43,411 nucleotides of DNA from NCBI GenBank assembly GCA_018334075.1, contig JAGXSC010000071.1:1-43411 (forward strand), read 5' to 3'. The position numbers and the translations under genes were made by a program. The stretch comes from Actinomycetota bacterium. GTDB taxonomy: Bacteria; Actinomycetota; Coriobacteriia; Anaerosomatales; UBA912. Of this stretch, positions 22,101 to 39,369 are shown piece after piece. Within the stretch, counting starts at the first letter, position 1, and each line of letters starts with the position of its first letter. A model generated the notes under the pieces. It worked only from the letters and a program-made list of their open reading frames with translations. It had not been told where the DNA came from and searched no databases.

Positions 22101-22289
22101 GGCTCGGTGGCAAATCGCACAAGCGTCAGTCTCCAATTCGGTGGGCACGTGAGGAGGCAGCATGCTTGCCTCGGCCAATCCTGGGCCAACGAGGAGCATG
22201 GATAATAAGACGCCGGCGAAGAGGCCGGCGGCCAAAATGCTTTGTACTTCTACCTTACCCCAACGCACGACCGGACACCGTCGCATCAT
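19161..22289 (-). CDS. large secreted cytochrome c, 14 haem motifs flanking a beta-propeller-like domain
   Basis: About 1042 residues from the ATG at 22289 (AGGA eight bases upstream; a GTG two codons earlier is possible). Signal peptide at about 14-42. The N-terminal block (to about residue 340) has eight CxxCH motifs, including CAICH, CFSCH, CSSCH, CAACH, CSNCH, CFVCH, CQSCH and CDSCH. The middle (about 350-790) has no haem sites and carries FG-GAP/VCBS-like repeats such as GDVLLDGSGRPEVLVVSRS. The C-terminal block has CADCH, CFECH, CVDCH, CYSCH and CASCH plus a final C-x3-CH (CSTQCH). Doubled CxxCH-x-HGS patterns suit a surface electron conduit. It is the last gene of the formate dehydrogenase cluster. 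Electron partner unknown. Confidence 0.9.
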   Translation of the reverse strand: MMRRCPVVRWGKVEVQSILAAGLFAGVLLSMLLVGPGLAEASMLPPHVPTELETDACAICHRAHTAASDITRTVPARPWDTTRTALIVGAYTGAADTQLCFSCHGLDALGSEVDVQSAFISSSAHSIAPSPSDFGPSPKRCSSCHDSHGSERTAAGDPFPALLSVVASEGSTATINAGDEFCAACHVIRPGSRWSGIEVWRRTAHSAEMTAPASGTGVTCSNCHASHGSEIAPLIRTTLLPPAAPATQTISENNRTLCFVCHAGGQATYPGRARYEFSGHAMSPATITIAGEWPSADSSRTVGECQSCHAPMGRPLSTGQTVPRLLEAPGRALCDSCHSSGSPVAAAAADLAQFKFPVAASPKLEVAVAYNAGRNPEVFDRLALYSQETTGPLPFDLVGPREYDLPGVAADMAAGDIRGLGINQLIVADSVARRLAVATPDPLAGVIVSTYSITTTPTLVAIGDVLLDGSGRPEVLVVSRSAEATANSSLWVYRWDAATDTLQEVVGGIALDDNASGLTVGRLTRADRDDIVITALSGPSLSVFTESILSPGTLGTLPVRHYVAADGVLGGPRGPSIGDASAATPGNEIAIANSLEATYGVSVFSPSTGLVGSYPHSGAPDARGWDTLIADVLPAVAGTETVLALRNNAGMSSINVFERHATSGLTSPPLAYDTGLHFGSAALAHGDVDSAPDGRLELVVGNAGSWGLARTDNQVPPSVQVFGINAAGTGLTPPETYSGGGAEKAGNTPAIALVDLGGLGASRHPVSVSRDPAALVTAHVSTETAPFELHVECADCHSAHEATSTPSPAAAVAPEVYGRLKGVWGVRTEFTSTSTITYTQRQGVAYEHEVCFECHSGWNRAPGGPDDVAMQFNIHNPSFHPIAAGTSRAENTTGSFVPATPAWTTSSVLHCVDCHGNSDPAQPAGPHYSSTAPLLGRPYLGVPSAEETKLCYSCHRYTVYFTGAEDLLPESTSNFRGATLVEPRLHRLHVNDAGLSCASCHVSHGSRVNEHLIRHGLGWSDSPAGGTCSTQCHAGGIRSYSR

Positions 22290-22349
22290 CCGCACCGTCC
22301 TGTTGTGATCAATCGCGCTAAAAGCACCGGTTTACAGGTTATGATTCTA

Positions 22350-24422
22350 TCACGGCGAGGCGGCACTGACAGCCTGCTCGCGAACATGTTCTGTAAGAAC
22401 CATTTCTCCTCCTATAAGCCGGATCTCTTTGATTTTGCCGACATTGCGGTGAAGCACTGTGCGGGCATCTTCGTGCAGTACGGAGCTTTCGGTCAGAAGC
22501 AACACCGATCCCGTATGACCCTGCAGGACACCACCTGCGAGCGCGTCCGGAAAATCACGGCCAGTCGCTAGCGCCACTCTAGAGATGGAAAGTCCCTCAC
22601 CCAAAGAGTGCTCCGCTATTGCTCGAGCTGTGGCAAACCGATCATCTCCCCCCAAGCGACCTGCGACCTCAATGTTCGCGCCATTGATTCGCGATTCGGT
22701 CACTCCGCTCACGACGCCTGTTCCTCCGAGAAGATAGACTCTGCGCACACCGGCTTTTTTCATCTCTAAAATCGTGGTCGAGGAAATTCCGGTGTTTGGG
22801 GCCAGGTATATCGGAACTCCCCGCGCCGCCGCCAGAGGCGCCGCGGCAAGCGCGTCAGGGAAGTTTAGTCCCGTCGCGACGAATGCAGTGCCATCCCAAG
22901 GCGTACTCCGTGGGGGCGAAACCGTTGCCGAGGCGATCTGATGCGTAGTCTCATATCGATTCACCCCACCCAAGCGCCGGACATTATCCCATCCTAGCAG
23001 TCTTATTAGCGTATCTCTCACGCTATCGGAAACCGCGCCCGAACCCCCTACGATGATCGCCCTGTCAGCTTTAAGCTGCCCGATATACGTAGCGACCTCT
23101 ACCGGCAAAGAAGCCGGTTCGGTGAGCAAAAGCGGCGCGTCCAGCGCGCCGGCCAGCCCGGAGGCCGCGAGCGCATCGGGCCAGTTCCTGCCGGATGCGA
23201 TGATCACCGTCCTTCGCCCGTCGGGCCCCGGGTTCATCTCGGATGAACCAAAAGTCACCTTCGCCGCCTCTATTGCTGTCAGAAAACGGTCTCGCCCAGA
23301 CACTCTTAGAGGCAAAGGCGGCTGCGGCGCAGGTGGGGCGCTCCAGGTCAATCCCCCGTCACTTGTCCGAAAAATATGACCGCTATTTCCAACCGCCACA
23401 GCGGTATTACTGTCGATCGCGTATACATCTTCGAAGTTCACATGAGCAAGCAAAGGCTGTGTCGTCGTCCAGCTCAGCCCGGCGTCCGGCGTCCTTAGAA
23501 TGACCCCGCCGGATCCCACTGCAAAGCCGCTCGTACCACCACGGACGATAGAGACTGCCCTGAGGTCCGAGAAGGTCCCCGACCCGGACGGCTCCCATGT
23601 GGCACCTCCGTCTACAGTACGCCGAATCCTGCCCTGAGCACCGACGGCGACTCCGCGGCTCTCATCACTAAAAGACAAGTCGTAGAAGGGCAGGGATCCT
23701 CCCGCGAAACTTTGTTCGGACCAGTTCCCGCCATCAAACCGCCAAACCACAGCCCTGTGAGGTTCCCGCAGGAAATCGATACCAACGGCCCACACCCGGC
23801 TCGGAGTGACAGCATCGATACCGTAAAAGACTCCAAGCCCATCTTTCGGAAACGGATCAGCGTCCGGTGGTGGATCGTAAGAGCCAGCCAGCAACACGGC
23901 CGGCCCCCAATCGCCATGGCCGTTTCGGCTTTCCCAAACCGCCGGCTGTATTTCTTGCGCTCCTCCAACGGCCATGATTGTCGATGTCCCGGCTACCGCG
24001 AGGTCATATATCGTTTCCGCCACATAAAACCCGCCGGCCAGATCGGTCGAAACCGGGTTCCAGGATTCGCCGGAATTGGTCGTCGCAAAAACCGCGCCGG
24101 CGAAAGTCACCGCCCAGCCCGCAGACGCATCACGAAATCCTATGCCGGTAATGTTATGGTCTGGGGCTTGATGAACCAATCGCCAGCTCAAGCCGCCATC
24201 GACCGTTTTCAATATCGTGCCCGATTCGCCCGCCGCAAACCCTGTCGTGGGATCCACGAACGTCACGGTGTTCAGTTTGGCATCTACTGTACCGGAATCC
24301 ACCGTCCATACCGCGCGGGCATAATCCGGTGGCGTCGCAAATACGCAAGCGGCGAAAACAATCGCCAGCACAAGCAATGGTGTCGCTAAATATCTCCTGA
24401 AGTTATGAGTGAGTCCTGGCAT
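22350..24422 (-). CDS. surface protein: YCF48/BNR-type propeller plus three cell-wall-binding repeats (CWB2)
   Basis: 690 residues from the ATG at 24422 (GGAGAAG eight bases upstream); an in-frame ATG at 24488 would overlap the previous gene. A signal peptide (LATPLLVLAIVFAACVFA) comes first. Residues about 40-365 form a beta-propeller with repeats like FVDPTTGFAAGESGTILKTV and TVDGGATWEPSG, the YCF48/photosynthesis-system-II-assembly or BNR type. The C-terminal 320 residues hold three CWB2 repeats (RVSGRDRF, RRLGGVNRYETT, RLGGDDRFATA, each with a W/FPDALA motif), which bind anionic wall polymers. It should sit in the wall outside the membrane. Its position between a lipoprotein and a 14-haem cytochrome suggests a scaffold for surface cytochromes (inference). 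Confidence 0.9.
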   Translation of the reverse strand: MPGLTHNFRRYLATPLLVLAIVFAACVFATPPDYARAVWTVDSGTVDAKLNTVTFVDPTTGFAAGESGTILKTVDGGLSWRLVHQAPDHNITGIGFRDASAGWAVTFAGAVFATTNSGESWNPVSTDLAGGFYVAETIYDLAVAGTSTIMAVGGAQEIQPAVWESRNGHGDWGPAVLLAGSYDPPPDADPFPKDGLGVFYGIDAVTPSRVWAVGIDFLREPHRAVVWRFDGGNWSEQSFAGGSLPFYDLSFSDESRGVAVGAQGRIRRTVDGGATWEPSGSGTFSDLRAVSIVRGGTSGFAVGSGGVILRTPDAGLSWTTTQPLLAHVNFEDVYAIDSNTAVAVGNSGHIFRTSDGGLTWSAPPAPQPPLPLRVSGRDRFLTAIEAAKVTFGSSEMNPGPDGRRTVIIASGRNWPDALAASGLAGALDAPLLLTEPASLPVEVATYIGQLKADRAIIVGGSGAVSDSVRDTLIRLLGWDNVRRLGGVNRYETTHQIASATVSPPRSTPWDGTAFVATGLNFPDALAAAPLAAARGVPIYLAPNTGISSTTILEMKKAGVRRVYLLGGTGVVSGVTESRINGANIEVAGRLGGDDRFATARAIAEHSLGEGLSISRVALATGRDFPDALAGGVLQGHTGSVLLLTESSVLHEDARTVLHRNVGKIKEIRLIGGEMVLTEHVREQAVSAASP

Positions 24423-24465
24423 CAATGCTCTTCTCCAGCGGTGGCGGCTTTCATCGGCAAACAGC

Positions 24466-25371
24466 TCACGGGGAAACGGCCTCGGCAAGCGAGATCAGTT
24501 GCGACTTGAGGGCGGTCCCATCGGCAGTCACACTCGTACCTTCAAGCGTGATAAGCAGGTCTCCCTGAACGAAAGAGACGATCGCATGCGATCCGTTCGC
24601 GCCAAAATACGCAGGATCGCCTTCGACTCTGAAAAGTTCGCCGCCCGTCGGATAGCTGGATCTCATCGAGGTTTCCATTCTTTTTCGCGCCGAGGCCGAA
24701 TCGTAGAACTTCTCCACCACTATGACCAACGCCCGAAACGAGTCCTGGGAGGTCGGCATATAGTGACGAGTGAGCACGAAAGCGTCCACGAGGAGTTGTT
24801 GCCCATTGAATCCCGGCAAAGTGTCCGGAACATAGGGAACAAGCCCGCCGAGAAAACCGGTCTGCCCGGGCGCGTTCGCATCCTCTCCAGGCTCCTGTGT
24901 CGCCGGAGGCGTCGCATCCGGCGCCGCAACCGGCGGTGGCGTAGCAGGTGTCCTGCCCGGAGAGCCTCCTGGCCTTACGGCTGTATCCGCCTGGGGAGTA
25001 TTGCCTGCTTCAACGTCAGCCAACTGCTGGGGGGCTCTACGATAGTTCGGGTCCAAGGCGACGATTTCCGCCAGCTTTTTCCTCGCGCCCTCAAGATCAC
25101 CAGCCCTAATCGACTTCTGGGCCTCGTCATACAAAGCGAAAAGTTTCCGGTGAAGATCGCAGGTCTCGACGCGAGTGGTTACCTTGTACTGCTCGACCTC
25201 ATCGGCAGGCACCTCTTTTTCCACGGTGGTGTCCGAGAGGATCTCGCCTTCGGTGCACAATACGATCTCACCGCTCAAGACAGTGACAGTCGGCTGATCC
25301 CTGCAACCTGCAAGATTCAGTACCGAGAATGCGAACATCAAGGCAAGCAGAAGCAGTGTGCCGCGCTTCAT
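24466..25371 (-). CDS. lipoprotein with a TPR-like helix pair, formate dehydrogenase cluster
   Basis: 301 residues. The signal peptide ends in the lipobox LNLAGC, so Cys23 is probably lipidated and the protein sits on the outer face of the membrane. A region at about 88-125 (AQKSIRAGDLEGARKKLAEI, LDPNYRRAPQQLADVEAG) looks like a tetratricopeptide pair. A Pro/Ala/Thr-rich linker (about 125-170) and an unrecognised C-terminal domain (about 180-300, GELFRVEGDPAYFG, ISLAEAVSP) follow. ATG with AAAGGAGG upstream. Function unknown; co-location suggests assembly or tethering of the cytochromes. Confidence 0.8.
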   Translation of the reverse strand: MKRGTLLLLALMFAFSVLNLAGCRDQPTVTVLSGEIVLCTEGEILSDTTVEKEVPADEVEQYKVTTRVETCDLHRKLFALYDEAQKSIRAGDLEGARKKLAEIVALDPNYRRAPQQLADVEAGNTPQADTAVRPGGSPGRTPATPPPVAAPDATPPATQEPGEDANAPGQTGFLGGLVPYVPDTLPGFNGQQLLVDAFVLTRHYMPTSQDSFRALVIVVEKFYDSASARKRMETSMRSSYPTGGELFRVEGDPAYFGANGSHAIVSFVQGDLLITLEGTSVTADGTALKSQLISLAEAVSP

Positions 25372-25426
25372 CCATGCCTCCTTTCGATCAGTTCGCGTCC
25401 TGAGTTACGTCACGGGAGCCTTGCCA

Positions 25427-25455
25427 AGGGGCCGGGTGAATACTCCCCGGCCCCT
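25427..25455. other. strong GC-rich inverted repeat between cytochrome and lipoprotein genes
   Basis: aggggccggg (25427-25436) and cccggcccct (25446-25455) form ten perfect pairs around a 9-base loop, in the 129-base gap between the 6-haem cytochrome stop and the lipoprotein start. There is no T-run on the minus-strand downstream side, so a classic intrinsic terminator is unlikely. It may stabilise the upstream mRNA end, cause partial termination, or set different expression for the fdh part and the surface-protein part. Confidence 0.55.
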
Positions 25456-25500
25456 CGAAAAGAATCGAACTCTTTCTTGCCTTTTATATAAATCCTTTAC

Positions 25501-26718
25501 TTACTTGTTATGGCACGACTGGCAAACACCTCGGTTATCAAGACGCAACAACGAGTTGCCGCCGCTGGGAGGAACACCGCCTGTGCCGCTGTTCGGCTGC
25601 GGATCCCGTGAGTCGGCCACGTTCGCAAAGCCGGTCATAACCGCCGAGGACCCATGGGCCACGTGACACGTAAGACAGCTCATCCAGTCCGTAGCCTCGT
25701 TAGTGGCGGCATTGGCAGGATCGTGCGACAGCGCCAACCCTGGAGCGTTGACATTTATCGGTCTCGGCCCAAGGTATCCGGCCAAATCGACATTTATAGG
25801 ATGCCGATGTCTGACCGCATAACCAAAGCCATCATTTGAGTTATAGCCCCTCAGGGCATCAGCAATCAGCGTCTCTGCGCCTCCCTCGCCCGGGGTCAAG
25901 CTTGTGTCAAACACCGCTCCAACAGGTTGCGTGTACTGCACATGGCACGCGGCGCACCATCCACTGATCCCTCTATCGGGATCATTGGCGGGAGGCTTCG
26001 CGTGCAACGGGCGTGTGTAGCTAGGCTGGTAGTTCGCCATCTGTGAGGCGCCCGGCTCATGGAGGAGCCAGCCCATCGCAGGATATCCAGGCTCAGCCGA
26101 AACCACCCATGGCGTTGGCATGGGGTTCTCGGCACTAAATCCTGGAGCGGTATCATCGTAGCCACCTACAACACGACCGTTGACGACATCTTTAAGGAGC
26201 CGGTAGTTGGAGCTTCCGTGCACATCATGGCAGGAGGTACAGCTCATCACTATCTGGGGCTCTCCGTCGCTCAAGCCGCCGAGCAAATCGGCATCGGTCG
26301 AGCCTCCATAGGCGAACCAGGAAGCTCCCGTGTACATATGCGACGTCGGAAAGATCGCGGCGTCAAAACCTCCAGCGTTAAGGCGTCCACCCATAGTGTT
26401 TCCTGGGAGTGTGCCCTCGTAGATACCCTCCTCGACATTGGTGTCAGCTCCGAGCCCAACCGCATCGTGGCAGGTGTAGCAGAACTGATACACCTCGTTG
26501 GCGGTGGACATCAGTAACGCGCTGCCCTGTGTGCCGTCGGTTCTGGTCCATGTGATGCTGCTTGCGGCGGTATGCGCACGATGGCATCCGGCGCATGAGT
26601 CCGTGTCCATCGAATAGCCGCCGTGAGGGCCGAAATTGCCCATGGCAACGCCTGGGGTGAACGCAAACGAGAGCACCACTGCGAACACAACAAGAACAGC
26701 AATGTTTATCCTGCGCAT
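25501..26718 (-). CDS. secreted 6-haem cytochrome c
   Basis: 405 residues with an N-terminal signal peptide (IAVLVVFAVVLSFAFTPG) and six CxxCH motifs: CAGCHRAHTA, CYTCH, CTSCHDVHGS, CAACH, CLTCHVAHGS and CQSCHNK near the C-terminus. CxxCH-x2-H(G/T) is the doubled-CXXCH pattern in which a nearby His can be the second haem ligand. The ATG overlaps the fdhB stop by 13 bases, so the two are translationally coupled. It is the best candidate for the direct electron acceptor of the formate dehydrogenase, in place of a cytochrome b subunit (inference). Confidence 0.92.
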   Translation of the reverse strand: MRRINIAVLVVFAVVLSFAFTPGVAMGNFGPHGGYSMDTDSCAGCHRAHTAASSITWTRTDGTQGSALLMSTANEVYQFCYTCHDAVGLGADTNVEEGIYEGTLPGNTMGGRLNAGGFDAAIFPTSHMYTGASWFAYGGSTDADLLGGLSDGEPQIVMSCTSCHDVHGSSNYRLLKDVVNGRVVGGYDDTAPGFSAENPMPTPWVVSAEPGYPAMGWLLHEPGASQMANYQPSYTRPLHAKPPANDPDRGISGWCAACHVQYTQPVGAVFDTSLTPGEGGAETLIADALRGYNSNDGFGYAVRHRHPINVDLAGYLGPRPINVNAPGLALSHDPANAATNEATDWMSCLTCHVAHGSSAVMTGFANVADSRDPQPNSGTGGVPPSGGNSLLRLDNRGVCQSCHNK

Positions 26719-27590
26719 TTATTGCTCACCCCTTCCTCCTTATCCGTGGCCTCTTCAGCCAATTTGATCCTGCGGGCAATCGCAGCAAACACTCCTCCGG
26801 CGATAAGCGTCGGAATGGCCGTTGCTTGTGCCACAGAGCTTGCCAGCACGCTTGACATCAGGGAACCAACCTGTCCCTGATCCAATGGGTTGGCTCTGGG
26901 TGCGGCTAAAACATACTTCTTGCTAGCCCACATAACGCTACCATTTCCCTGGAAGGACAGATAGCCGCCGGTGCGAATCCACTGGCGTATGTTCGCCCTC
27001 GTGTCCCAGAGCATGGCTTTCGCAGGACAGGTGTACACGCAGGTCGGCTCATGTGCGGTTTCCGGCGCGGGTGGAGAGCTCAGGTGGGTGTGATTGTTAT
27101 TCGCCGGCAGAGGATTCCCGTAGGTGGAAATCAGCTGCGCCGAAGAGCCCGCCCTGCCGTGACAAAGCGTGCACTTCCAAGCCTTTGGGGCTCCCGGGAA
27201 CAGATCACTACCGATGCCCACTCTTGGATAGCCGCCATGCGGACAGTCAACCACGCACTGACGAGTGCATCGTACACCCGCAGCATTCGTCGCCCCAGGC
27301 CTGCACTTCACCGGATCGATTGAGACCGCTCCGTTAGGTTGCTTGACCAGCGCGACAAAGGGGCACCTCTTCACGCAGGGAGGATCGGGGCAGTGCCAGC
27401 AACTGAACCTTATGAAGGGCCCCATATCGAGCCGTCTTTGGGAATTGATGACTATCCTTTGATCGGGAGCCACCCTATGCACTCCGGGGTTCAGCGCCAT
27501 CATCTTCCATGTACGTTTACACCCGACAGTGCAGCCGTTGCAACGCATACACTTATCGACATCTTGGAACACAGACATTACATTAGCCAC
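26706..27590 (-). CDS. fdhB: formate dehydrogenase iron-sulfur (beta) subunit with C-terminal membrane helix
   Basis: 294 residues with four ferredoxin-type cysteine clusters: C14-MRCNGCTVGC, CWHCPDPPCVKRC, CRPG with CTRQCVVDC, and CTLC with CVYTCPAKAM. This is the order in DMSO-reductase-family beta subunits such as FdnH and HybA. A hydrophobic segment near the C-terminus (SSVAQATAIPTLIAGGVFAA) is probably a membrane anchor. It carries electrons from the molybdenum subunit. It follows fdhA by 15 bases; GTG start with AAAGGAGG. The CTLCH sequence is a cluster ligand site, not a haem site. No gamma (cytochrome b) subunit gene follows. Confidence 0.93.
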   Translation of the reverse strand: MANVMSVFQDVDKCMRCNGCTVGCKRTWKMMALNPGVHRVAPDQRIVINSQRRLDMGPFIRFSCWHCPDPPCVKRCPFVALVKQPNGAVSIDPVKCRPGATNAAGVRCTRQCVVDCPHGGYPRVGIGSDLFPGAPKAWKCTLCHGRAGSSAQLISTYGNPLPANNNHTHLSSPPAPETAHEPTCVYTCPAKAMLWDTRANIRQWIRTGGYLSFQGNGSVMWASKKYVLAAPRANPLDQGQVGSLMSSVLASSVAQATAIPTLIAGGVFAAIARRIKLAEEATDKEEGVSNKCAG

Positions 27591-27605
27591 CGCTCATCAC
27601 CTCCT

Positions 27606-30600
27606 TTAGGCTCTCTCAATCCTGCAAAGACAAGCTTTGTACTCAGGAATGATAGTGTTTGCGTCAAACGCGTCGATACACAGGTCGTTCGCTCTGGAGC
27701 CCACGGACAGGCCCTTGTTGCCCCAGTGGAACGGAATCGCAACGACCCCTTGTCCAACCCTCTGGTTGTTCTGAAGGCCGACGCCCACTTTCGCGCGAAA
27801 TCCTCGCGCAAAGGTACTACCGGGGGTTGCAGCTGCCTGGTCCGTTGTCGAGTTGCTCCTCGGGGTGATGATGTTGACCCAGTCTCCCTCCTTGATGCCA
27901 TACTTGGCAGCATCCAGAGAGTTGATCTCGACCCAAGGATCCGGCTCAAGCTCAACATTGAACGAGTTGTTACGGGTCATCGGGCCGCCTTGGAAGTGCT
28001 CGACTGAACGCATCGTAGTCAGGACCAACGGATAATCGGCTGGATCGACTCCTCCTCTACCCGCAAGGGGGGTGTCCGCGCGCACAAGATCCCACTGCGC
28101 AGTACTGCGCGTATTGCGACCCCATGCTGCCAGCAGATCCGGCCGAGGAGACTCGTAGGGTTCTGTATGACCCGGGAATCTTCCAGACAGAGCCACTCCG
28201 CCCTGGAAATGAGGGCTTGCCGTGTCTGTATAAGGCTGACCTGCGATCGCAAGATCAGGTCTGTCCGACAGGCGATGATAGTACCTAAACCAACGGGAGT
28301 AGTTGAGGTCCCTGCCAGAGCGCGGCGTCGCGGTGACAAAGATTCGCTGTACCGAATCGGGCCCCATGAACCAGTCAATGACGTCCCCTGGCACCTCACC
28401 GTTGTTGTAAAGAACCCGTCTGTTTACCAGCCATGCGTAACCCCAGGCAGGAAAGGCGAGTGTTCCATTGGGATCGACCAGCGAGCGGCTCTTCGCGCGG
28501 TTATCAACCGGCCAGTTGCCCTGACCAACATGACGATTGGTCGTGCGATCTGTGTGGTACGCGCCGGTATACAACCATGCGGTACCTACAGCCGGCGTGC
28601 ACATCTCCCGGAAGATTTGCTCGGTGATCCACTCGGAACCGTAGACAAGACCGGTGCTCGGCGAGGTGTCCGCGCCTCTCCATATCTCGGCGGTGCCGCT
28701 TACGGCTTCGAAATCGACACCTGCGCCCGGAGTCCATCCGTAGCGGTCACCATAGAGTGTCTGAAACGCACTGGTAAATGATCTGCCCTGAGCGGTCCAC
28801 ACATCTGTGATGTGAGAGAAGGCACCCGCTCCTTCGAAAGCGTGCGCGAGGCGGATCAACAGCTCCATGTCAGATCTGCTGTTGCCCTTAGGTTTCGTAG
28901 CCCTCTCGCGCCACTGAAGTATCCGGCCCGAGTTCGCCGAGCTGCCCGCCTCTTCCGTGTAGGCGCAGGCGGGAATCAGGTATGTGACCCCGTCGGGCTT
29001 ACGCGGTGTCGCGGCAGTCTCGTTTTCAAGCAGGTCTACGACGACCAGGGTATCAAGCTGGTAGAAGCCATCACGGATGTTTTTGAGATTAGCCTCGGTG
29101 ACCGCCAGATTCATGCCCCAAACCATCATCGCCGTGATCTGACTGGCAGCGGCTTTCTGGAACATCACTATGTGATTGTCACCGTTTGTCTTTGGCCACA
29201 GGTCGTAAAGCGCGTTGGTCAACGTCCGATTGGCAATCGGCGTCGTCATCCAAGCTCTGTCGCCGAAGAAGTTGTACGTCATGTTAAGAAATCCGCGCTG
29301 CTGAAGGCTGAGTGCGGCAGTGTTGTAAGCGTCATCATACGAACCGTTCATGTTGGTTCTGACGCCTGTGCCATTTACCGGTACACCCCAAAGACCTCCG
29401 TCCATGTACTTGCCGAACGCATTGGGATCCGCGGTAGACATAACTGTGGGATTTCCGGAGTAAAACGGAATCAGGTTGAACAGATTACCGTTATCTGTGG
29501 AGCCCTGGACATTATGGATGCCACGAAGGGCGTTGATGCCGCCGCCTGCCCGCCCCATGTTGCCCATCAAGGACTGCAGGACGGAAAACGCCCTTACGTT
29601 CTGCGCACCCTTGGTGTGCTGGGTCAGGCCCATCGCGTAAAGCATCGTCGTTGCCTTGTATCCGGAAACCCTAGGATCCTGTGAGCCCGGTCCAAACCCA
29701 CCCGGAGAGGAGTGTCGACTGTTTTCGATGTACGCATCGATAACATACGCGATGTCATCTGTAGTACATCCACAGATATCCGCAACTACTTCGGGAGTGT
29801 AGGGCGACAGATGGGCTTTCAGCCGGTTGTAAACCGTATTGGGATCGGCAAGCACGTTGCTCGCCCGCCTCGGAAAGTTGGAGATCACCGTGTTAGCGGG
29901 CTCGGTGCCTGTCACAGGAAGGCCGGTCGCGGCAACGATCGGTTCCCGATCATAATCGGTTCCATCGGCGCGCAATATGAAGCGCGCGTCAGTGTGACGG
30001 GAACATCCCGGAACCGCCGAAGGCGTGCTGGCCGAGGTGGCATCGCCATCTGTGAAGAACATCCCTGCGCCGGCAGGCCCCCAATTGGCAGGCGCCGACC
30101 AGTTCAGGTATTCGAAGAACTTGACCCTAACCGGATCGGTTGCCGGCCGAGCCTCTAGTTTGAGGATAACCCCAAGCGACACCGCATTGACAAAGGCGAT
30201 ATCCGTGCCTGGTCGTATCCTTATGAACCTATCTGCCTGAGTCGCTGTCCTTGTCTTTCGAGGATCAATGACCACAAGCTTGCCGCCCCTGGATCGAGCC
30301 CTCTCGATATGGGCCATGGACATGGGGTGGTTTTCAGCGGGATTCCCGCCCATTACAACGATAAGCGACGCATTGCCGATGTCGTTCCAAGTGTTCGACA
30401 TCGCACCTCGTCCGTATGCGGCGGCCAGACCGGCCACCGTGGAGGAGTGTCAAAGTCGCGCTTGGTGCTCGACGTTCGAAGTTCCGAATTGAGCGATCAA
30501 ACGTCGATACGAATAGTTCTGCTCGTTGTTCAGGTGGGAGGAGCCGAAAAACGCCACGCTCTTGCTGTTATGGCCGTTTGCGGGGTTTACCGGTCCTCTG

Positions 30601-31085
30601 GCCGTGACCATTCTCTGGGCAATCTCGTTGAGCGCCTGATCCAGAGGTATCTTGTCCCAGTCTGCATTACCGGTGCGCTTGTAAGCGATTCCGTTGGCAT
30701 AAGCAGGCGCCGAGTCGTATGCGAACTTGGGGTTCTCGGGGTGCGGACCCGGGAACGCCCCGAGCCTTCTAGGGTTAGTAACCAGCTGATAGGATCCCGC
30801 GCCCTTGGAGCACAGGCCGCCAGCATTCATTGGTGACTTGAAGTCGCCATAAACGTCAAGAACGTTACCTGCCGAGTCAACATCCACCAGCTGTCCGCAA
30901 CTCGCGGAACAGTAAGGGCATGTGGTGTGGTAGGTTTCGGCCACAGCAGCGGCGGTCGCAGCTGACGGATTGACCGCTATTTCCGCTCCTGCGGCGGCAG
31001 CAGCCGCAGCAAAGGCACCTGTTTTCAGAAAATCTCGACGGCTAATTCCCTTTTCGGGAACTTTTCCTTCACCATTAGTACTCAT
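27606..31085 (-). CDS. fdhA: selenocysteine-containing periplasmic formate dehydrogenase, catalytic (alpha) subunit
   Basis: 1159 residues when the TGA at 30450-30452 is read as selenocysteine (residue 212). The site reads VEHQARL-U-HSSTVAGLAAA, the conserved Sec region of formate dehydrogenases. The N-terminus has a twin-arginine signal (SRRDFLK, Arg16-Arg17), so the folded enzyme is exported. A [4Fe-4S] site follows (CPYCSASC, then C92 in LCSKG). The rest is the molybdopterin oxidoreductase fold, with a C-terminal dinucleotide-binding domain (about 1020-1155). It oxidises formate to CO2 at a bis-MGD molybdenum or tungsten centre. ATG with GGGAGGG upstream. A UGA-blind caller would split it into two ORFs; no frameshift is needed. 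Confidence 0.95.
30419..30439 (-). promoter_or_regulatory. bacterial SECIS hairpin of fdhA
   Basis: Ten bases after the UGA on the minus strand, CGGTGGCC (30439-30432) pairs with GGCCGCCG (30426-30419) in 8 pairs, one G-U, around the loop GGTCT (30431-30427). The position and GG at the loop match known fdh SECIS elements that recruit SelB. Confidence 0.8.
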
Positions 31086-31181
31086 GCGGTCATCCCTCCC
31101 TCGTTTTGTTACTTGTCATCTTAATACCTACCCTTCTCGCTGAAATATTGTCTAAACCGAAGAAAGTAATTGGTGTAGGGC

Positions 31182-31274
31182 TTACGTCACCTCCAATCGC
31201 TCTGGGGAGGCGATCCGAATGCCAAAGACCGGCCACGGCTTCAGCGCTTCGCTGATGGCGTGACCGGTCTTCAT
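31182..31274 (-). CDS. possible 30-codon leader peptide upstream of fdhA
   Basis: From the ATG at 31274 a 30-residue ORF ends with TAA at 31182-31184. The peptide contains ISEALKPWPVFGIRIASPER. A GGGAGAG ribosome site lies nine bases upstream; another in-frame ATG at 31283 is too close to it. The codons overlap both hairpins of the leader, so translation would affect folding. I do not recognise the peptide. It may instead be a chance ORF in a structured RNA leader. Confidence 0.35.
   Translation of the reverse strand: MKTGHAISEALKPWPVFGIRIASPERLEVT
31188..31212 (-). promoter_or_regulatory. leader hairpin hiding a GGAGG sequence
   Basis: On the minus strand CGCCTCC and GGAGGTG can form seven pairs around an 11-base loop. 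An alternative pairing, ATCGC with GCGAT, uses the same bases and excludes the first. Mutually exclusive pairings about 100 bases before fdhA are what a riboswitch or attenuator would show. No known class is matched; a Moco riboswitch would be the natural candidate. Confidence 0.35.
31226..31270 (-). promoter_or_regulatory. long perfect hairpin in the fdhA leader
   Basis: AGACCGGTCACG and CGTGGCCGGTCT form a 12-pair stem with one G-U. Inside it TCAGCG and CGCTGA add six pairs closed by AAG. The 45 bases are followed by only TTT, so a simple terminator is not convincing. The stem is too regular to be chance. It begins a few bases after the possible leader-peptide start. Confidence 0.6.
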
Positions 31275-31323
31275 ATTCTTCATCTCTCCCTTACCCAAGG
31301 AAACACTGCTTAAGCGATGCCGC

Positions 31324-31348
31324 AAAAATTCCGAGCTACCGGGCCCGG
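31324..31348 (-). terminator. probable intrinsic terminator after the NHL-repeat gene
   Basis: Minus strand: CCGGGC pairs with GCTCGG (six pairs, one G-U) around CCGGTA, followed by AATTTTT (31330-31324). It lies about 55 bases after the stop of the NHL-repeat gene. It separates the 7-/20-haem operon from the fdh operon, or acts as an attenuator for readthrough into fdhA. Confidence 0.5.
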
Positions 31349-31349
31349 T

Positions 31350-31386
31350 GTTACAAGCAAAAGGATGCTTGTAACGATGGTTACAA
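31350..31386 (-). promoter_or_regulatory. Crp/Fnr-type palindrome with a third half-site, upstream of fdhA
   Basis: TTGTAAC-GATG-GTTACAA (31369-31386) is a perfect palindrome with TGTAA-N6-TTACA geometry, the spacing bound by Crp/Fnr-family regulators. A third half-site, gttacaagc (31350-31358), pairs with gcttgtaac (31367-31375), giving an overlapping inverted repeat with a 10-base... centre of eight bases (31359-31366). Three ordered half-sites in 37 bases suggest cooperative or alternative binding. The regulator is not in the window. Confidence 0.55.
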
Positions 31387-31401
31387 TCTCACCTAAATAC
31401 C

Positions 31402-32937
31402 TTACTCTCCTCTGCTGCCCTTGTCAACACCTTTCAGGAAGCGCCTCGAGTACTCCTCGGCGTCAAACACTTCGATCCCGAGCCTCCTGCCCCAAGCCGT
31501 CAACCGCGCGTCTTCGGTGCAGAGCCTCTTTGTACGCTTGGCCAGTGCTAACAGGGCCGCGTCGTCATAGGATATACCTTGCGTCTTGACGAGATGAGCG
31601 GCATCAGAGTCTGAGTAAGCGGCTCTCTTTACCAGGCGAGCGATATCCACTCCACCGATAACCCTGCCGATAAGCGCCGTATGAAGTTGGGCTGTTATGA
31701 TCCACCGTATGCGACCGCGCCGCATGACTTCGATTTTGCCCGCCGAAGCAAGCGCCTCGATAAAGTCGACATTCACAACAAACCTGCGGCGGCGCAAGAG
31801 CAATAGGAGCGGCAGCAGCAGAAGTGGCAGCAGCCACCAGGCTCTGCTCCAATCTACTCCCGGGGGCGCCGGAATCACTATATCGGCTTGCGCCCACTCC
31901 CACACCTGAACCTGGTGATTCTCCCTGTCGGTAACGTAGATTCTCCCCGTCGCATCCAGGTCGATGGCATTCGGGAAAGCGAACTGGCCAGGACCGATTC
32001 CGCGCCCGCCAAAACTTGTGATCTTTTCACCTTGAAGCGTGTATATGTCTACTGAATGCGCCAGTGCGTCCACGACGTACAGGTGACCCTCTTCGTCGAT
32101 GGCAAGACCCCTTGGTATTCCAGCCGTCTGAATGATGCGCTCAAAGTTGCCTTGGGCATCAAAGACCTGGACTCGCCTGTTGTTGCTGTCGCTCACAAAC
32201 AAAGTGCCGTCATCGCTGACCGCAATATGATTCGGGAAGAAAAAGCTCCCTGGCAAATCCGTCATTCGCTCGGCGGTTCCGGTTCTTCCAAATCGGCGGA
32301 CCTCTGCCCCTTGTGCGTCGAAAACGAGCACCCTGTGCATGTCGGTTATGCCGACATCAGTTGCGTATAAGTTGCCTTGCTCGTCAAATGTGGTGCCCAG
32401 CGGACTCCAGAGCTGATCTTCCTCTCCATTCAATGATATTTCGCGAAGATATTGGCCTTCGGCTGTGAACACATAGATCGAGCGCAGCCGCCTGTCGGAA
32501 ACGTATATGTTGCCGTCCGGCCCCGCCGAGATGTGCTGAGGATTCCCCAGGCTTGTGTTGTCTCCATCCGCTATCGCGGAAAACGAGAACCTGTAATTTC
32601 CGTTCAGCGAGTAGACCCTGATCACTCGAGCTTCAGTGTCCGTGACATAAACGCTGTTGCCAAGAACCGCCACACCAACCGGTCGCGTCAGGGCATCGGG
32701 TCCTGCGGGTCCTGCAATCGAAAATACGTATTCCGGGGGAGCCACCTGTTCCTCGGCGGTTATGCCTATTCGTGGTATCGGCAGCCGCCTGTGAACTAGG
32801 TAGTAATAGGTCGCGAAAAGAACGATTGCTATCAGAATCAAAAGCATTGCAAGTAGCGCTATCTTGCGGGTCAGCGAAGGCTCGCCTCCCGGTTCAGGCC
32901 AATCCCTTCGATTCGCCTCCGTCGTGGAATCGCTCAC
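31402..32937 (-). CDS. NHL-repeat membrane protein with a C-terminal PIN-like domain
   Basis: 511 residues. A short cytoplasmic N-terminus and a membrane segment (about 25-47) precede an outside six-bladed NHL propeller (about 70-355), with repeats such as RPVGVAVLGNSVYVTDTEAR and FPNHIAVSDDGTLFVSDSNN. A second membrane segment (about 362-381, WWLLPLLLLPLLLLL) and RRRR lead into a cytoplasmic domain (386-505). That domain ends in DDAALLALAKRTKRLCTEDA, followed by GIEVF, which resembles the acidic C-terminal half of PIN nucleases. The first PIN Asp is uncertain (VVNVDFIEAL). GTG start with AAAGGAG. Last gene of the 7-/20-haem cytochrome operon. Confidence 0.85.
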   Translation of the reverse strand: MSDSTTEANRRDWPEPGGEPSLTRKIALLAMLLILIAIVLFATYYYLVHRRLPIPRIGITAEEQVAPPEYVFSIAGPAGPDALTRPVGVAVLGNSVYVTDTEARVIRVYSLNGNYRFSFSAIADGDNTSLGNPQHISAGPDGNIYVSDRRLRSIYVFTAEGQYLREISLNGEEDQLWSPLGTTFDEQGNLYATDVGITDMHRVLVFDAQGAEVRRFGRTGTAERMTDLPGSFFFPNHIAVSDDGTLFVSDSNNRRVQVFDAQGNFERIIQTAGIPRGLAIDEEGHLYVVDALAHSVDIYTLQGEKITSFGGRGIGPGQFAFPNAIDLDATGRIYVTDRENHQVQVWEWAQADIVIPAPPGVDWSRAWWLLPLLLLPLLLLLRRRRFVVNVDFIEALASAGKIEVMRRGRIRWIITAQLHTALIGRVIGGVDIARLVKRAAYSDSDAAHLVKTQGISYDDAALLALAKRTKRLCTEDARLTAWGRRLGIEVFDAEEYSRRFLKGVDKGSRGE

Positions 32938-32984
32938 AGATGCTCTCCTTTATAGAATCGGTGTTCCTGCAACCTCTTGTTTTT

Positions 32985-33998
32985 CTACGGAGCCGGCGCT
33001 CCGAGCCGTTCAACAGCTGCGGCGGCATCGGTATCCCTGGGCGCCAGATCCAATACACGCTGCCAAGCAGCTAAAGCGGCCGGTTTGTCACCCGCTGTCT
33101 CGTAGAGCGACGCGACAGCCCTGGCCGCGTCGACGCTTTCCGGGTCGACAGCCGCGGCGATCCGCGCCTCAACCAGAGCGGCGCTGGCATCGGTCGACGC
33201 CAAGGCCGACGACCGCTCAAGCCGCTCCTCCGCGCTCCCGAATTGCGCGAGAGCCTCGGCAGGCTCGGTGCGCTCCGGCGGAGCGTTTTCCACCGCTACC
33301 CTAAAGCGCTCGGCGGCACCGGCCTCGTCTCCCTGCTCGAGAAGTATCTTTCCGTACTCGTAATTCGCGTCCGGCCTCATGGGATCGAAGCGCAACGCAT
33401 ACTCAATATTCTCGCGGTACTTGACTAAGGAGTCCGTCTCGCGATACGCAATGCCGAGAAGAAAATACGTGTCGGCGACATCTCGGCGGATCCTAAGAGC
33501 CTCCCGTAAGTAGGAGATCGCTTCCTCGTACTCCCGCACCTCCATCAAAGTGGCGCCCAGGTGCCGATACGCTTTCTCGAGGCGCTGGTCGACAACGTCG
33601 AAGCGACCGTCGGTGAGCACTTCGATGACCTTTCGCCAGTACCCTTCGGCCGTGCGCCATTCGCCCTGCTCCATTGCGATGGTAGCCATCCCGGAAAGCG
33701 CGTGGGGGTTTTCTTCCTCCGCCGAGAGGACCTCCTGATACTGCCCGGCGGCGTCGCGGAACCTTCCTGAGGCCATGAACGCGTCCGCGAGACGCAATCG
33801 CGCATTCACGTTTTCGGGATTCTCGCGGACAATCCGCTCCAGATTCGCTATAGCCCTGGCCGCGGGCGTGGCGGCCCGATCCTGAAGAGCCGTGGATATC
33901 ATCACGTAGGCAAGAGCGATCAGGGACAGAACCAGCACCCCGGCTGTTGCCCTGATCGCCCAGTTAATCCAATGACCTCCATGTTTACGCTGAACCAC
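32985..33998 (-). CDS. membrane-anchored TPR protein of the cytochrome operon
   Basis: 337 residues from a GTG at 33998 with AAAGGAG about ten bases upstream. The frame stays open to 34151, but that would overlap the 20-haem gene by about 100 bases and add non-family sequence. An N-terminal membrane anchor (about 16-42) is followed by about six tetratricopeptide repeats (for example NARLRLADAFMASGRFRDAA, ADTYFLLGIAYRETDSL) outside the membrane. TPR proteins with this layout, like NrfG and CcmH-type proteins, help cytochrome c maturation, which fits the neighbours (inference). Confidence 0.88.
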   Translation of the reverse strand: MVQRKHGGHWINWAIRATAGVLVLSLIALAYVMISTALQDRAATPAARAIANLERIVRENPENVNARLRLADAFMASGRFRDAAGQYQEVLSAEEENPHALSGMATIAMEQGEWRTAEGYWRKVIEVLTDGRFDVVDQRLEKAYRHLGATLMEVREYEEAISYLREALRIRRDVADTYFLLGIAYRETDSLVKYRENIEYALRFDPMRPDANYEYGKILLEQGDEAGAAERFRVAVENAPPERTEPAEALAQFGSAEERLERSSALASTDASAALVEARIAAAVDPESVDAARAVASLYETAGDKPAALAAWQRVLDLAPRDTDAAAAVERLGAPAP

Positions 33999-34048
33999 TA
34001 CCGTGCTTCTCCTTTCGGCCAATACCAGATCGTTTGAGCATTTTGGCT

Positions 34049-35632
34049 TCACAACCTCAAATCGTCGTGACACCGCCTGCAAAGCTCGGATCCCGGATAT
34101 GGCGCAATCAAAATATTGTCTATGCCCAGATTGCCGTGACACTCGTAACACAGCCGCAAGTCATGGGCTTGTGCTGGTGCCGCCGGGCTTGGACCTGGGC
34201 GCGTTTCGAACCCAACGTGGCAGTCGTCGCAAACGTAAGGCCGCCCGACCCTCTCGGCAACATTGAAATGCACGGCGTGCTCGGCGAGGCGCGGGTTGCG
34301 AATATCTGTCGCCGGCTCAGTCTTCATCTCCTCGTGGCACTGAACGCAGTTGGCGGGCAACAGCTCGACATCAGCGACAGCGGCGTGGTGACACTCCTGG
34401 CAGGAGGAGCGATCTGCGTGGCATACGTTGCAATCATCTACAAGCTGAGCGCCGTTCGCGGCGTGCAGCGAAAGCCACCCCTGCGGATGGGGCATCGAGG
34501 TCAAGTGGCACTCGGTGCACGAGCGACTAGTGTGACACACCGAACACGCTCCACGCTGGCCGAGAAACTCATCGCCGTGTTCTGGAATCCACTCCCTGGC
34601 TAAGTGCGCTTCAGGTACCACCGGCTCGCTCAAGGTACCGTCGGCCATCTCGAAGCCGCCGACATGGCATTCGGCGCAAAAAGCCGAAGTGTGACACATC
34701 GTACACGACTTCATTTGCTCCGTGGCTTGTTGAGTGTGCTCTCCCGTCACGAACTCCAGCGTGTGATCCTTTGGCACGAGATCGAATGCGGGAGGATGAC
34801 AAGCGCCGCATTGCACGGTGGCCACTTCGCCTTGCGCGCTGTGCACAAGGCTATGGCACCGGTAACACGAAAGCATGTCGGGAACCACGGTAGCATCCGC
34901 CTGATGCGGAAAAACCTCATGGCATGCCGCGCAATCGAAATCACGTTGCAAGTGGGGATCGTGCGGGAAGATCAATCTCTCGTCACGGGTCTCGGCTATG
35001 GTCGTATGGCAATATGCGCACTGACCGATCGATACCGGCTGGGCAGTGTCCACATATACTGGGGGCTGCTGAGGCTCTATCGGAATATAGCGCAGGTATA
35101 TCCTGGGCATCGGACCAACATCGGGCGCCTGCTCCAAGTGGCAAGTATCGCAATCCGCGACCGCTTCATGGCATATCATGCAATCGTTGACACCCGTCTG
35201 CTGTGCGACTCTGGCGTGTGGCTCTTCTTCCCAGGCGGCGACGTGGCTTCTCGGCCGAAAAGTATGTTCGGCGGTATGGCAGGTCTCGCAATCCCCTGAG
35301 GCCAACACCTCCTGCGGGCCATGGAACATCCCGTGGCAACTGAAGCAGGTGCGCATCACTGGACGGTATGTCAGGTCCGCCTCGTGCGCTGGGCGCAGAT
35401 GGCAAGCCTCGCACGCCGAGGGCGGATGCTCCACGTGAGAAAAGGTGAGTCCCTTGACATCAGTACGGTCGATCTCCAGATGACAGGGCGCGCAATCTGC
35501 GACACTCGAGGGTAGCCTGGAGATGTTCACGACCGAACTGTCGAGAGTGTCGCCTGTAGCGGGCAGCCCCAAGAGCGCCACGGCAAAAATTCCCGCGGCC
35601 AGCAAGCTGATCGCCAAGCTGCGCACTCTCAC
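34049..35632 (-). CDS. secreted 20-haem cytochrome c
   Basis: 527 residues with a signal peptide (SLAISLLAAGIFAVALLGLP) and 20 CxxCH motifs by direct count, from CAPCH near residue 47 to CRRCH at the C-terminus, one per about 24 residues. Several come in pairs a few residues apart (CTMCH/CAECH, CSVCH/CTECH, CNVCH/CQECH). There is no other domain and no membrane anchor after the signal. The haem density is that of a molecular wire. GTG start with AGGAGG. It lies 18 bases after the 7-haem cytochrome gene. Confidence 0.95.
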   Translation of the reverse strand: MRVRSLAISLLAAGIFAVALLGLPATGDTLDSSVVNISRLPSSVADCAPCHLEIDRTDVKGLTFSHVEHPPSACEACHLRPAHEADLTYRPVMRTCFSCHGMFHGPQEVLASGDCETCHTAEHTFRPRSHVAAWEEEPHARVAQQTGVNDCMICHEAVADCDTCHLEQAPDVGPMPRIYLRYIPIEPQQPPVYVDTAQPVSIGQCAYCHTTIAETRDERLIFPHDPHLQRDFDCAACHEVFPHQADATVVPDMLSCYRCHSLVHSAQGEVATVQCGACHPPAFDLVPKDHTLEFVTGEHTQQATEQMKSCTMCHTSAFCAECHVGGFEMADGTLSEPVVPEAHLAREWIPEHGDEFLGQRGACSVCHTSRSCTECHLTSMPHPQGWLSLHAANGAQLVDDCNVCHADRSSCQECHHAAVADVELLPANCVQCHEEMKTEPATDIRNPRLAEHAVHFNVAERVGRPYVCDDCHVGFETRPGPSPAAPAQAHDLRLCYECHGNLGIDNILIAPYPGSELCRRCHDDLRL

Positions 35633-35650
35633 CCGAAGACCTCCTGGCTT

Positions 35651-36610
35651 TTACCGGCCGAACAATCCGCCGATAGTCTCACGCATCCATTGCATCATTC
35701 TGGAGAGAAATATCTGCTCGGATATCTCCTCGCGGCCATGGATAAACCTCGCGTAATCGACGTATGCCTCATTGGCGTCCGGGTGGCAAGTCGCGCATGT
35801 CTCCACGAGCCGCCTCTCGTTGACCATCGAGTTCCTGTCTTCGGCGGGTAGGATTTCATGGAAACCGTGACAGTCCCAGCATGCGGGAGCGTCGGTAGCT
35901 CCCCTCTTGTACGCGGCTCCGTGATAGTAGTCATTGTAAGAGTCCCAATAATCCTGATGACAGCGTCCGCAAATCTCCCAGCCCCTGGCGTGCAGTGCGG
36001 CGCGACCCTGAGGGTCATCGGTAAGAAACTCGATCTCGTGGCTGCCATGGCAATCACCACACAACGGACGAGGCTCAGCCTCTTCGGCGGGCGCGGCGGT
36101 CGGCGTTACCTCAAGGCGATGGGCCCCCCTTCCGACCGCGATTGCTTGCTCCCGATGACAGTTCCCGCATGCAGACTTCGCTACGCTACTCCAGTCGGTG
36201 CCAAGCTGCTCATGCGGGGCGCTGAACGCGAAATCCAGATGACACCCGGTACATTGAATAAGTCCATGCGCCGACTGGGAGAACCTGTCCGGATCGACAA
36301 AGTAACTGATGACGCGGCCATCCCTTACACGGGTGAGGTCTTCATCTTCATGGCAGACCATGCACCCGGCCTTTGCCGCCGTGGGTAGTGTGAAGTCGAC
36401 ATCGTAGCCCTCGATTGTTACCGTGGGCACGGCTGAGGCCACAGGCTGCGCCTGCTGATTTGCCGCAGCGATAGCCGTCGAGGCAGCAACCATTTGTGCC
36501 CCAGAAAGAACAACAGCAACCAAAACGGCGCGCACGAACATAACAGAGCGTGGTCGTGATCTCCGTTTAATGCCGCCATAAACCCTTAACCCTTGACCCC
36601 TTGCATTCAT
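35651..36610 (-). CDS. secreted 7-haem cytochrome c
   Basis: 319 residues. Extended N-terminus, then signal peptide or anchor (FVRAVLVAVVLSGAQMVAAS, about 25-44). Seven CxxCH motifs: CMVCH, CTGCH, CGNCH, CGDCHGSHEI, CGRCH, CWDCHGFHEI and CATCH. The C-terminus has an amphipathic helix (ISEQIFLSRMMQWMRETIGG). The CGDCHGSHEI and CWDCHGFHEI forms resemble NapC-linked and octahaem cytochromes. The ATG at 36610 has AAGGA upstream; the Met right before the signal has none. First gene of the operon, so probably the entry point for electrons (inference). Confidence 0.92.
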   Translation of the reverse strand: MNARGQGLRVYGGIKRRSRPRSVMFVRAVLVAVVLSGAQMVAASTAIAAANQQAQPVASAVPTVTIEGYDVDFTLPTAAKAGCMVCHEDEDLTRVRDGRVISYFVDPDRFSQSAHGLIQCTGCHLDFAFSAPHEQLGTDWSSVAKSACGNCHREQAIAVGRGAHRLEVTPTAAPAEEAEPRPLCGDCHGSHEIEFLTDDPQGRAALHARGWEICGRCHQDYWDSYNDYYHGAAYKRGATDAPACWDCHGFHEILPAEDRNSMVNERRLVETCATCHPDANEAYVDYARFIHGREEISEQIFLSRMMQWMRETIGGLFGR

Positions 36611-37902: not shown

Positions 37903-37909
37903 CTTCCCC

Positions 37910-38398
37910 CTAGTGTCCCTCGCCTGCGATCATTTCCAGCGCGTGTTCGAGTTGATCGGCGATAAAACCAAAAGACTCGACAGCGCCTTTCTGGCTGCCC
38001 GGCAAATTGATTACCAGCGTAGACCCGCGCAATGCCGCCACCCCGCGGGATAGCATAGCCCTGCGGGTGATCTCCATCGACTGGCGCCGTATGGTCTCGG
38101 CGATTCCAGGAACCTGCCGGTCGCAGATGTCCAAGGTCGCCTCCGGAGTGAGATCGCGCGCGGAAAGCCCCGTACCACCCGTAGTCAATACGACATCGGC
38201 GTGGTCGGAATCGGCCATCTCGGCGATCGCCTCGGCGATTACACCCCGATCGTCCGGAACGATCCTGTAAGCCACGACCTGAAGGCCCAGCCGTTCGGCT
38301 TCGGCCGCGAGCGCCGGTCCGGCCGTATCGGCCAAGCTCCCGGCAGAGCGGGAGTCCGAGCACGTCAATATCGCTACCCGTATCGGCCTCATCGTCAT
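37910..38398 (-). CDS. moaB: MoaB/MogA-family molybdopterin adenylyltransferase
   Basis: 162 residues: VAILTCSDSRSAGSLADTAGPAL, VLTTGGTGLSARDLTPEA and TLVINLPGSQKGAVESF, the MPT-binding loops of the MogA/MoaB family. It adenylates molybdopterin before metal insertion by MoeA. Stop of the MOSC gene and this ATG are adjacent (TAGATG). Confidence 0.95.
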   Translation of the reverse strand: MTMRPIRVAILTCSDSRSAGSLADTAGPALAAEAERLGLQVVAYRIVPDDRGVIAEAIAEMADSDHADVVLTTGGTGLSARDLTPEATLDICDRQVPGIAETIRRQSMEITRRAMLSRGVAALRGSTLVINLPGSQKGAVESFGFIADQLEHALEMIAGEGH

Positions 38399-39366: not shown

Positions 39367-39369
39367 CTT

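Follow-up and report, generated by a model that had tools for sequence, protein, structure and literature searches.

A formate dehydrogenase paired with an OmcS-like hexahaem cytochrome in an Anaerosomatales bacterium: a candidate cassette for extracellular electron exchange

Where do the electrons of an exported formate dehydrogenase (FDH) go when no cytochrome b is encoded beside it? The question is raised by a single locus of an Actinomycetota bacterium of the order Anaerosomatales/OPB41 (assembly GCA_018334075.1, contig JAGXSC010000071.1, positions 1 to 43,411; this whole stretch of 43,411 nucleotides is called the window). There, the genes of a Tat-exported selenocysteine FDH, FdhA and FdhB, are followed by the gene of a putatively secreted hexahaem cytochrome, H6, and surrounded by other multihaem cytochrome genes, all of them on the minus strand. 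It seems reasonably probable that we see here the FDH form of a cassette peculiar to the order, made up of an enzyme and an OmcS-like cytochrome, which serves extracellular electron exchange in a single-membrane bacterium. The gene content and order, selenocysteine site, export signals, haem counts, OmcS homology, conservation and exchange of FDH for hydrogenase are established at the level of sequence; from them we infer an outward flow of electrons and a polymerization of H6. Multihaem extracellular electron transfer is a kind of system already known, and the new element is the enzyme-paired OmcS homologue.

The hexahaem cytochrome and its formate dehydrogenase

H6 (25501..26718, minus strand) bears a clear signal peptide and is, by profile comparison, a homologue of OmcS, the subunit of a Geobacter cytochrome filament. 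When the PDB was searched with a profile of the H6 family (37 sequences), OmcS (6ef8) came first (E = 9e-15 over 345 positions) and OmcE was the next match (E = 2e-4). Haem motifs alone are insufficient to produce this match, because control profiles of two equally CxxCH-rich families of the cassette, the 20-haem (H20) and 14-haem cytochromes, did not find OmcS in the PDB. OmcS was found by the family profile only, as a phmmer search of the PDB with a single H6 sequence had no match. The hhalign comparison of the H6 profile with solved OmcS gave a probability of 98.7% and placed haems 1-5 in register, the fragment used in it stopping short of haem 6; the aligned blocks include CxxCHxxH, GxSxWCxxCH and CLxCHxAH. 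All 37 H6 sequences have the six histidines of their CxxCH motifs and exactly six additional invariant ones, which in the window are H32, H49, H127, H167, H306 and H355. The invariant H49 is the equivalent of the +3 histidine of the first motif. OmcS is reported to have 12 histidine ligands, of which a neighbouring subunit supplies one and the subunit itself the other 11 (PMC6584659), and the 12 conserved histidines of H6 fit a bis-histidine ligation of six haems without proving it. H6 thus shares with the OmcS filament of Geobacter sulfurreducens (PDB 6EF8/6NEF) six c-type haems, the order of the motifs, a similar length, three CxxCHxxH motifs at haems 1, 3 and 5 and the 12 conserved histidines. 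It differs in its aligned identity of 25%, its Gram-positive single-membrane host and its one-to-one pairing with an FDH or hydrogenase gene; moreover, OmcS forms filaments, whereas a polymer of H6 is conjectural.

FdhA (27606..31085, minus strand; 1159 aa; Pfam Molybdopterin 7e-38, Fe4S4 and TAT) is the only FDH of its kind in the source genome. Its gene contains a single in-frame TGA (30450-30452), whose position is identical in 34/34 relatives and always framed as EHQAR[ILV]-TGA-HSSTVAGL. The codon lies in a putative SECIS element (30397..30455, minus strand) similar to RF01989 SECIS_3 (42.4 bits, E = 1.8e-6, below the gathering score of 63), and the genome encodes a tRNA-Sec scoring above threshold (73.9 bits). 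The TAT domain, the conserved TGA, the SECIS_3-like element and the tRNA together bear out the proposal, made in an earlier note on this DNA, of a Tat-exported selenoenzyme FDH. FdhB (26706..27590, minus strand) is a beta subunit with several [4Fe-4S] clusters and a C-terminal transmembrane (TM) anchor (residues 253-271). Its one CxxCH (CTLCH) was rejected as a haem site, as it belongs to a [4Fe-4S] ferredoxin motif. The start of the H6 gene overlaps the FdhB gene by 13 nt. Apparent FdhB-H6 gene fusions at seven loci were also rejected: their extra N-terminal part has no similarity to FdhB and results from translating the GC-rich FdhB gene in a wrong frame.

The Tat-exported Sec catalytic subunit, containing molybdenum, and the iron-sulfur subunit with its C-terminal TM helix are shared with FDH-N (FdnGHI) and with the classical FdhAB-gamma enzymes of other members of the order. 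The window locus is unlike both in having no di-haem b gamma subunit; none is encoded in the window and no FdnI-type gamma of the order's family was found in the genome. For this reason the enzyme is not classified as FDH-N, a family whose NCBIfam alpha-subunit model scores FdhA 439 bits, short of the equivalog cut-off of 814. It is only ~30-40% identical to the FdhAB-gamma enzymes of the cassette-free members.

Conservation of the cassette and exchange of its enzyme

A search for H6 among 400 genomes of the class returned 48 positive genomes, all from the order of the window; two of them owed their match to a 14-haem-type protein alone, so that 46 remain. The earlier note had suggested a look at gene neighbours in Coriobacteriia, and the cassette proved conserved across the order with H6 directly downstream of FdhB. 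The order of genes in the relatives is fixed: H20, a TPR protein, an NHL protein, the enzyme, H6, often an extra gene, a lipoprotein, often another NHL protein, a CWB2 protein and the 14-haem cytochrome. Out of 59 H6 copies in relatives, 38 follow FDH genes (33 directly behind FdhB and 5 behind FdhA, where the FdhB frame was masked by an artefact of open reading frame (ORF) calling), while 17 stand directly behind the large subunit of a Tat-exported [NiFe] hydrogenase. The H6 phylogeny is split only once by enzyme, into an FDH clade (42 sequences) and a hydrogenase clade (18 sequences) with support of 100/100, and each H6 therefore appears to have evolved with its own enzyme. The source genome also contains the hydrogenase version, on contig C33, and its two H6 copies are 46% identical; in another genome both versions lie in tandem on one contig (L080). 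Judging from gene order and the H6 tree, there are two ancient versions of the cassette, in which the enzyme slot is occupied by FdhAB or by the Tat-exported [NiFe] hydrogenase.

The small subunits of the hydrogenases in the sister cassette have no TM anchor at the C-terminus, and their closest counterparts are periplasmic NiFeSe enzymes that work with cytochromes. In Desulfovibrio, the periplasmic FdhAB/FdhABC3 and NiFe(Se) hydrogenases donate electrons to multihaem cytochromes c. The cassette resembles these systems in that an exported enzyme would hand its electrons to a multihaem cytochrome and not to a gamma subunit. Nevertheless, the partner in Desulfovibrio is a soluble tetrahaem c3 in the periplasm, whereas that of the cassette is an OmcS-like hexahaem cytochrome with a wall-anchored conduit.

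Several further observations concern the variation of the cassette. From the end of H20 to H6, the hydrogenase cassette of C33 (L016/L006) is 95-100% identical in DNA to that of genome G002 (contig C122; L092, 1-8051), whereas the FDH cassettes of the same two genera are 71-74% identical. The identity falls to ~70% right after the H6 gene, in a collinear downstream flank. This conduit-enzyme-H6 block looks like the product of a recent transfer or recombination; mis-binning of the C33 cassette is disfavoured, as a flank of ~70% next to 8 kb of 95-100% is better explained by recombination or transfer. A protein with 12-14 TM segments and no known family is encoded between H6 and the lipoprotein in most other FDH cassettes (L056:10358-11899, L067:7909-9414 and L106:8226-9692, for instance) and is absent from the clade of the window; in hydrogenase cassettes an unrelated soluble protein of 438-483 aa takes its place. 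One genome (G104, L078) has a second FdhA after H6, which suggests a tandem duplication of the FDH part.

The conduit genes around the enzyme

In order of transcription, the locus comprises cofactor genes with fdhD, a 7-haem cytochrome (H7), H20, the TPR and NHL proteins, FdhA, FdhB, H6, the lipoprotein, the CWB2 propeller and the 14-haem cytochrome. The first block (36757..43369, minus strand) is made up of molybdenum cofactor and FDH maturation genes (a cysteine desulfurase/selenocysteine-lyase-like gene, mog, MOSC, moaC, moaA, mobB, moeA and fdhD), found in the same order upstream of the FDH cassettes of several relatives. The secreted H7 (35651..36610, minus strand) stands in relatives between a cytochrome b and a 12-haem gene (H12). 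The secreted H20 (34049..35632, minus strand) is a c7-type polymer cytochrome whose best structural match is the dodecahaem GSU1996 (PDB 3OV0, E = 7.5e-8), with which it shares the c7-type repeat; it differs in having 20 haems instead of 12 and in its context of TPR and NHL proteins. The TPR protein (32985..34151, minus strand) is probably anchored to the membrane by its N-terminus. The NHL propeller protein (31402..32937, minus strand; PF01436, 4.6e-31) has TM segments at residues 26-44 and 363-381 and a presumed cytoplasmic tail; its C-terminal third, with the second TM helix and a PIN-type-like tail, is of a design shared by the hydrogenase cassette.

Downstream of H6, the lipoprotein (24466..25371, minus strand) has a lipobox (LAGC) and a coiled or TPR-like segment; it matched no Pfam or NCBIfam family and has homologues in the FDH cassettes of relatives. 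It overlaps by 23 nt the gene of a BNR/YCF48 propeller (22350..24488, minus strand; PF14870, 9.6e-25) which carries three CWB2 repeats (PF04122 in three stretches, 1.4e-50). The last gene (19161..22295, minus strand), just beyond the interval 22350-36610 to which the earlier note referred, encodes a secreted 14-haem cytochrome with 13 CxxCH and an invariant CxxxCH motif around a central propeller-like (FG-GAP-like) region. The gene inventory of the earlier note is confirmed on all points: the FDH is clustered with secreted 6- and 14-haem cytochromes, a lipoprotein and a CWB2-anchored propeller, the ORFs and Pfam matches identify an adjoining 7-/20-haem operon with TPR and NHL proteins, and the count of CxxCH and CxxxCH motifs (7 + 20 + 6 + 14 = 47 in H7, H20, H6 and the 14-haem protein) agrees with the proposed minimum of at least 47 haem sites. 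Paired_CXXCH and Cytochrome_C7 are also matched by proteins of the window, and apart from the cytochrome genes and the CTLCH of FdhB its main ORFs contain no CxxCH. Neither this cassette nor those of relatives encode an outer-membrane beta-barrel porin with embedded cytochrome, and the locus is accordingly not of the MtrCAB/PCC type. A plasmid megablast had no match, and a scan of the genome contigs turned up a named relative, UBA7524.

The source genome has further cytochrome clusters. Those of contig C34 (L017 1-7271, L018) include a 32-haem protein of 1752 aa, a 14-haem protein, repeated sets of TPR, NHL and 6/7-haem genes, ResB/ResC-like genes and NHL-CWB2 fusion proteins. Near-identical 6-haem genes stand at two contig ends (L019 1-1625 on C30 and L020 3-470 on C1), possibly a tandem duplication broken by the assembly; one of them adjoins a Tat-exported molybdopterin enzyme, an iron-sulfur subunit and a chaperone-like protein.

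The membrane link and the fate of the electrons

The absence of a cytochrome b subunit, a central point of the earlier note, stands for the locus itself but is a derived condition. Of the 17 FDH cassettes whose upstream region was read, 14 open with a cytochrome b and the 12-haem gene on either side of H7, whereas both genes are missing from the window locus and from the cassettes of its close relatives G003 and G071. The distribution indicates a secondary loss in this clade from an ancestral type of cassette with a cytochrome b/7-haem/12-haem front end, which C33 of the source genome retains. Contig C55 (L005:3308-4986) additionally encodes an orphan Tat-exported iron-sulfur protein and an FdnI-like cytochrome b, with no adjoining catalytic subunit. 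The C33 cytochrome b and the C55 pair are candidate membrane partners elsewhere in the genome. A NikR-like regulator adjoins the C55 pair. Members of the order without H6 often carry the other FDH, followed by the classical gamma subunit. The gamma family was found in 21 of 69 genomes of the order, in 12/23 without H6 and 9/46 with it; these nine led to the rejection of a strict mutual exclusion between H6 and FdhAB-gamma.

The first two isolates of the order, whose cultured members have a Gram-positive wall, are Parvivirga hydrogeniphila and Anaerosoma tenue (PMC9686372). The former has pili-like appendages, can use either formate or H2 as donor for growth with Fe(III) (doubling time of 3 h on formate and Fe(III)) and reduces ferrihydrite; the latter uses formate with sulfur compounds and does not reduce Fe(III) (PMC9686372). 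A cluster of 15 genes in P. hydrogeniphila (MCL4079376-90, FDH genes MCL4079382-3 at positions 7-8), in which cytochromes and a molybdopterin oxidoreductase were noted (PMC9686372), has the layout of genome G008, as judged by the number of genes and the position of the FDH: cytochrome b, H7, H12, H20, TPR, NHL, FdhA, FdhB, H6, a membrane protein, lipoprotein, NHL, CWB2 and 14-haem. Genome G020 has no H6 and an enzyme of the FdhAB-gamma type instead.

There is good support for connecting formate oxidation with a system of cytochromes at the surface: the cassette is conserved across the order, H6 stands behind FdhB and is homologous to OmcS, and a cultured relative with a cluster of this layout grows on formate and Fe(III). 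In the proposed mechanism, the helix of FdhB would moor FdhAB to the outside of the membrane, where formate would be oxidized. Electrons would then pass from the iron-sulfur clusters of FdhB to the co-translated H6, a direct step suggested by the adjacency and overlap of the genes, their co-divergence and the anchorless hydrogenase. H6 would relay them outward through the wall, possibly as an OmcS-like polymer, to Fe(III) minerals, an electrode or another cell. H20 and H7 (with H12 and cytochrome b in most relatives) may constitute a second branch, from the menaquinone pool to the same outlet; the genes for menaquinone synthesis in the genome speak for the preferred reading as well. Such a membrane branch is expected for growth, because a circuit from formate to the outside separates no charge by itself, and this is why the cytochrome b of the relatives matters. 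The lipoprotein, the NHL and TPR proteins and the CWB2 propeller would scaffold the assembly and fix it to membrane and wall, and the 14-haem protein would act as surface reductase or relay. The conduit of the earlier note thus keeps its connection to the cell surface, but it is probably a two-input system, with an enzyme side and a membrane side sharing an outlet, and not one linear formate wire.

Several points weigh against this cassette-based reading. The direction of electron flow is not readable from sequence, and Sec-dependent FDHs and hydrogenases are reversible. The oxidation of formate outside the cell with an acceptor that is also outside conserves no energy, and the membrane link that would be needed is absent from the locus. 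The AlphaFold monomer of H6, from a two-row alignment, was unusable (pLDDT 27.6). The assignments of G008 to P. hydrogeniphila and of G020 to A. tenue are tentative. Finally, the study of the isolates detected no quinones in them and assigned the FDH to CO2 reduction in the reductive glycine pathway (PMC9686372), and the physiological role of OmcS filaments is disputed (PMC11077965).

Alternatively, the locus could serve an ordinary quinone-linked formate respiration, in which FdhAB would reduce a cytochrome b encoded elsewhere (on C33 or in the C55 pair) and the quinone pool would in turn feed the multihaem cytochromes for the reduction of Fe(III). Energy would be conserved in this way, genes for making menaquinone through the futalosine pathway are present in the genome, and FdhB ends in a TM helix such as those that pack against gamma subunits. 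Besides the cytochrome b of most relatives' cassettes, the one of C55 resembles the FDH gamma family, at 69.6 bits against a cut-off of 115.85. Yet the cytochrome b of the cassette scores better as a hydrogenase-type b cytochrome (79 vs 25.6 bits), and its gene adjoins that of the 7-haem protein, not fdhAB. Moreover, H6 almost always adjoins FdhB or HyL, even where the hydrogenase is anchorless, and true FdhAB-gamma occurs separately in the order, unlinked to H6. A quinone-linked route thus seems rather unlikely.

An inward flow appears improbable: electrons from a mineral, a cathode or a partner cell would reach the FDH through H6, CO2 would be reduced to formate to supply the reductive glycine pathway, and H2 would be the product of the sister cassette. 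The published assignment of the homologous FDH and the reversibility of both enzymes speak for it, but the formate made by a Tat-exported enzyme would have to be re-imported, and the cultured relatives use formate and H2 as donors with external acceptors (PMC9686372). It is very improbable that H6 and the other cytochromes are capacitor-like local stores or short relays of the wall zone, with no outlet to distant acceptors. Forty-seven haems can hold many electrons, there is no outer membrane to cross and the function of OmcS filaments is contested. Nevertheless, conservation of the cassette extends to a wall-anchored propeller and a secreted 14-haem protein, and ferrihydrite is reduced by a relative whose genes are arranged in this way.

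The Gram-positive extracellular electron transfer systems of Thermincola and Carboxydothermus (OcwA, OmhA, SmhA-C; PMC6703420, PMC7829351) share with the cassette the use of multihaem cytochromes across the wall, a comparison made by description only; the text of PMC7829351 mentions neither an OmcS homologue nor a formate dehydrogenase. The OmcS homology, the hydrogenase sister cassette and the order-wide conservation were not found reported in PMC9686372. Searches of the open literature, subscription papers (e.g. Baquero et al. 2023) aside, returned no report of a Gram-positive OmcS homologue linked to an FDH or a hydrogenase.

The cassette touches two open questions, the passage of electrons through a thick Gram-positive wall and the source from which cytochrome filaments are charged. 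A bolder form of the preferred reading, rather less likely than not, is that Anaerosomatales build OmcS-type filaments charged directly by an extracellular FDH or [NiFe] hydrogenase, with one enzyme per filament type and the cassette exchanged between genera by recombination. If true, this would be a plug-in architecture of a catalyst on a wire in Gram-positive bacteria. Direct feeding of a protein wire by its catalyst would be of interest to bioelectrochemistry too, whether for drawing current from formate or H2 or for running the conversion backwards. Nature has here swapped a part, as the same conduit occurs with two diverged OmcS homologues, one with FDH and one with hydrogenase. The swap recurs across dozens of species of a lineage that is widespread in the subsurface and already represented in culture, which makes direct tests possible. 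For the order as a whole, the comparison of genes and genomes suggests a plug-in system that would pass electrons from formate or hydrogen to the cell exterior.

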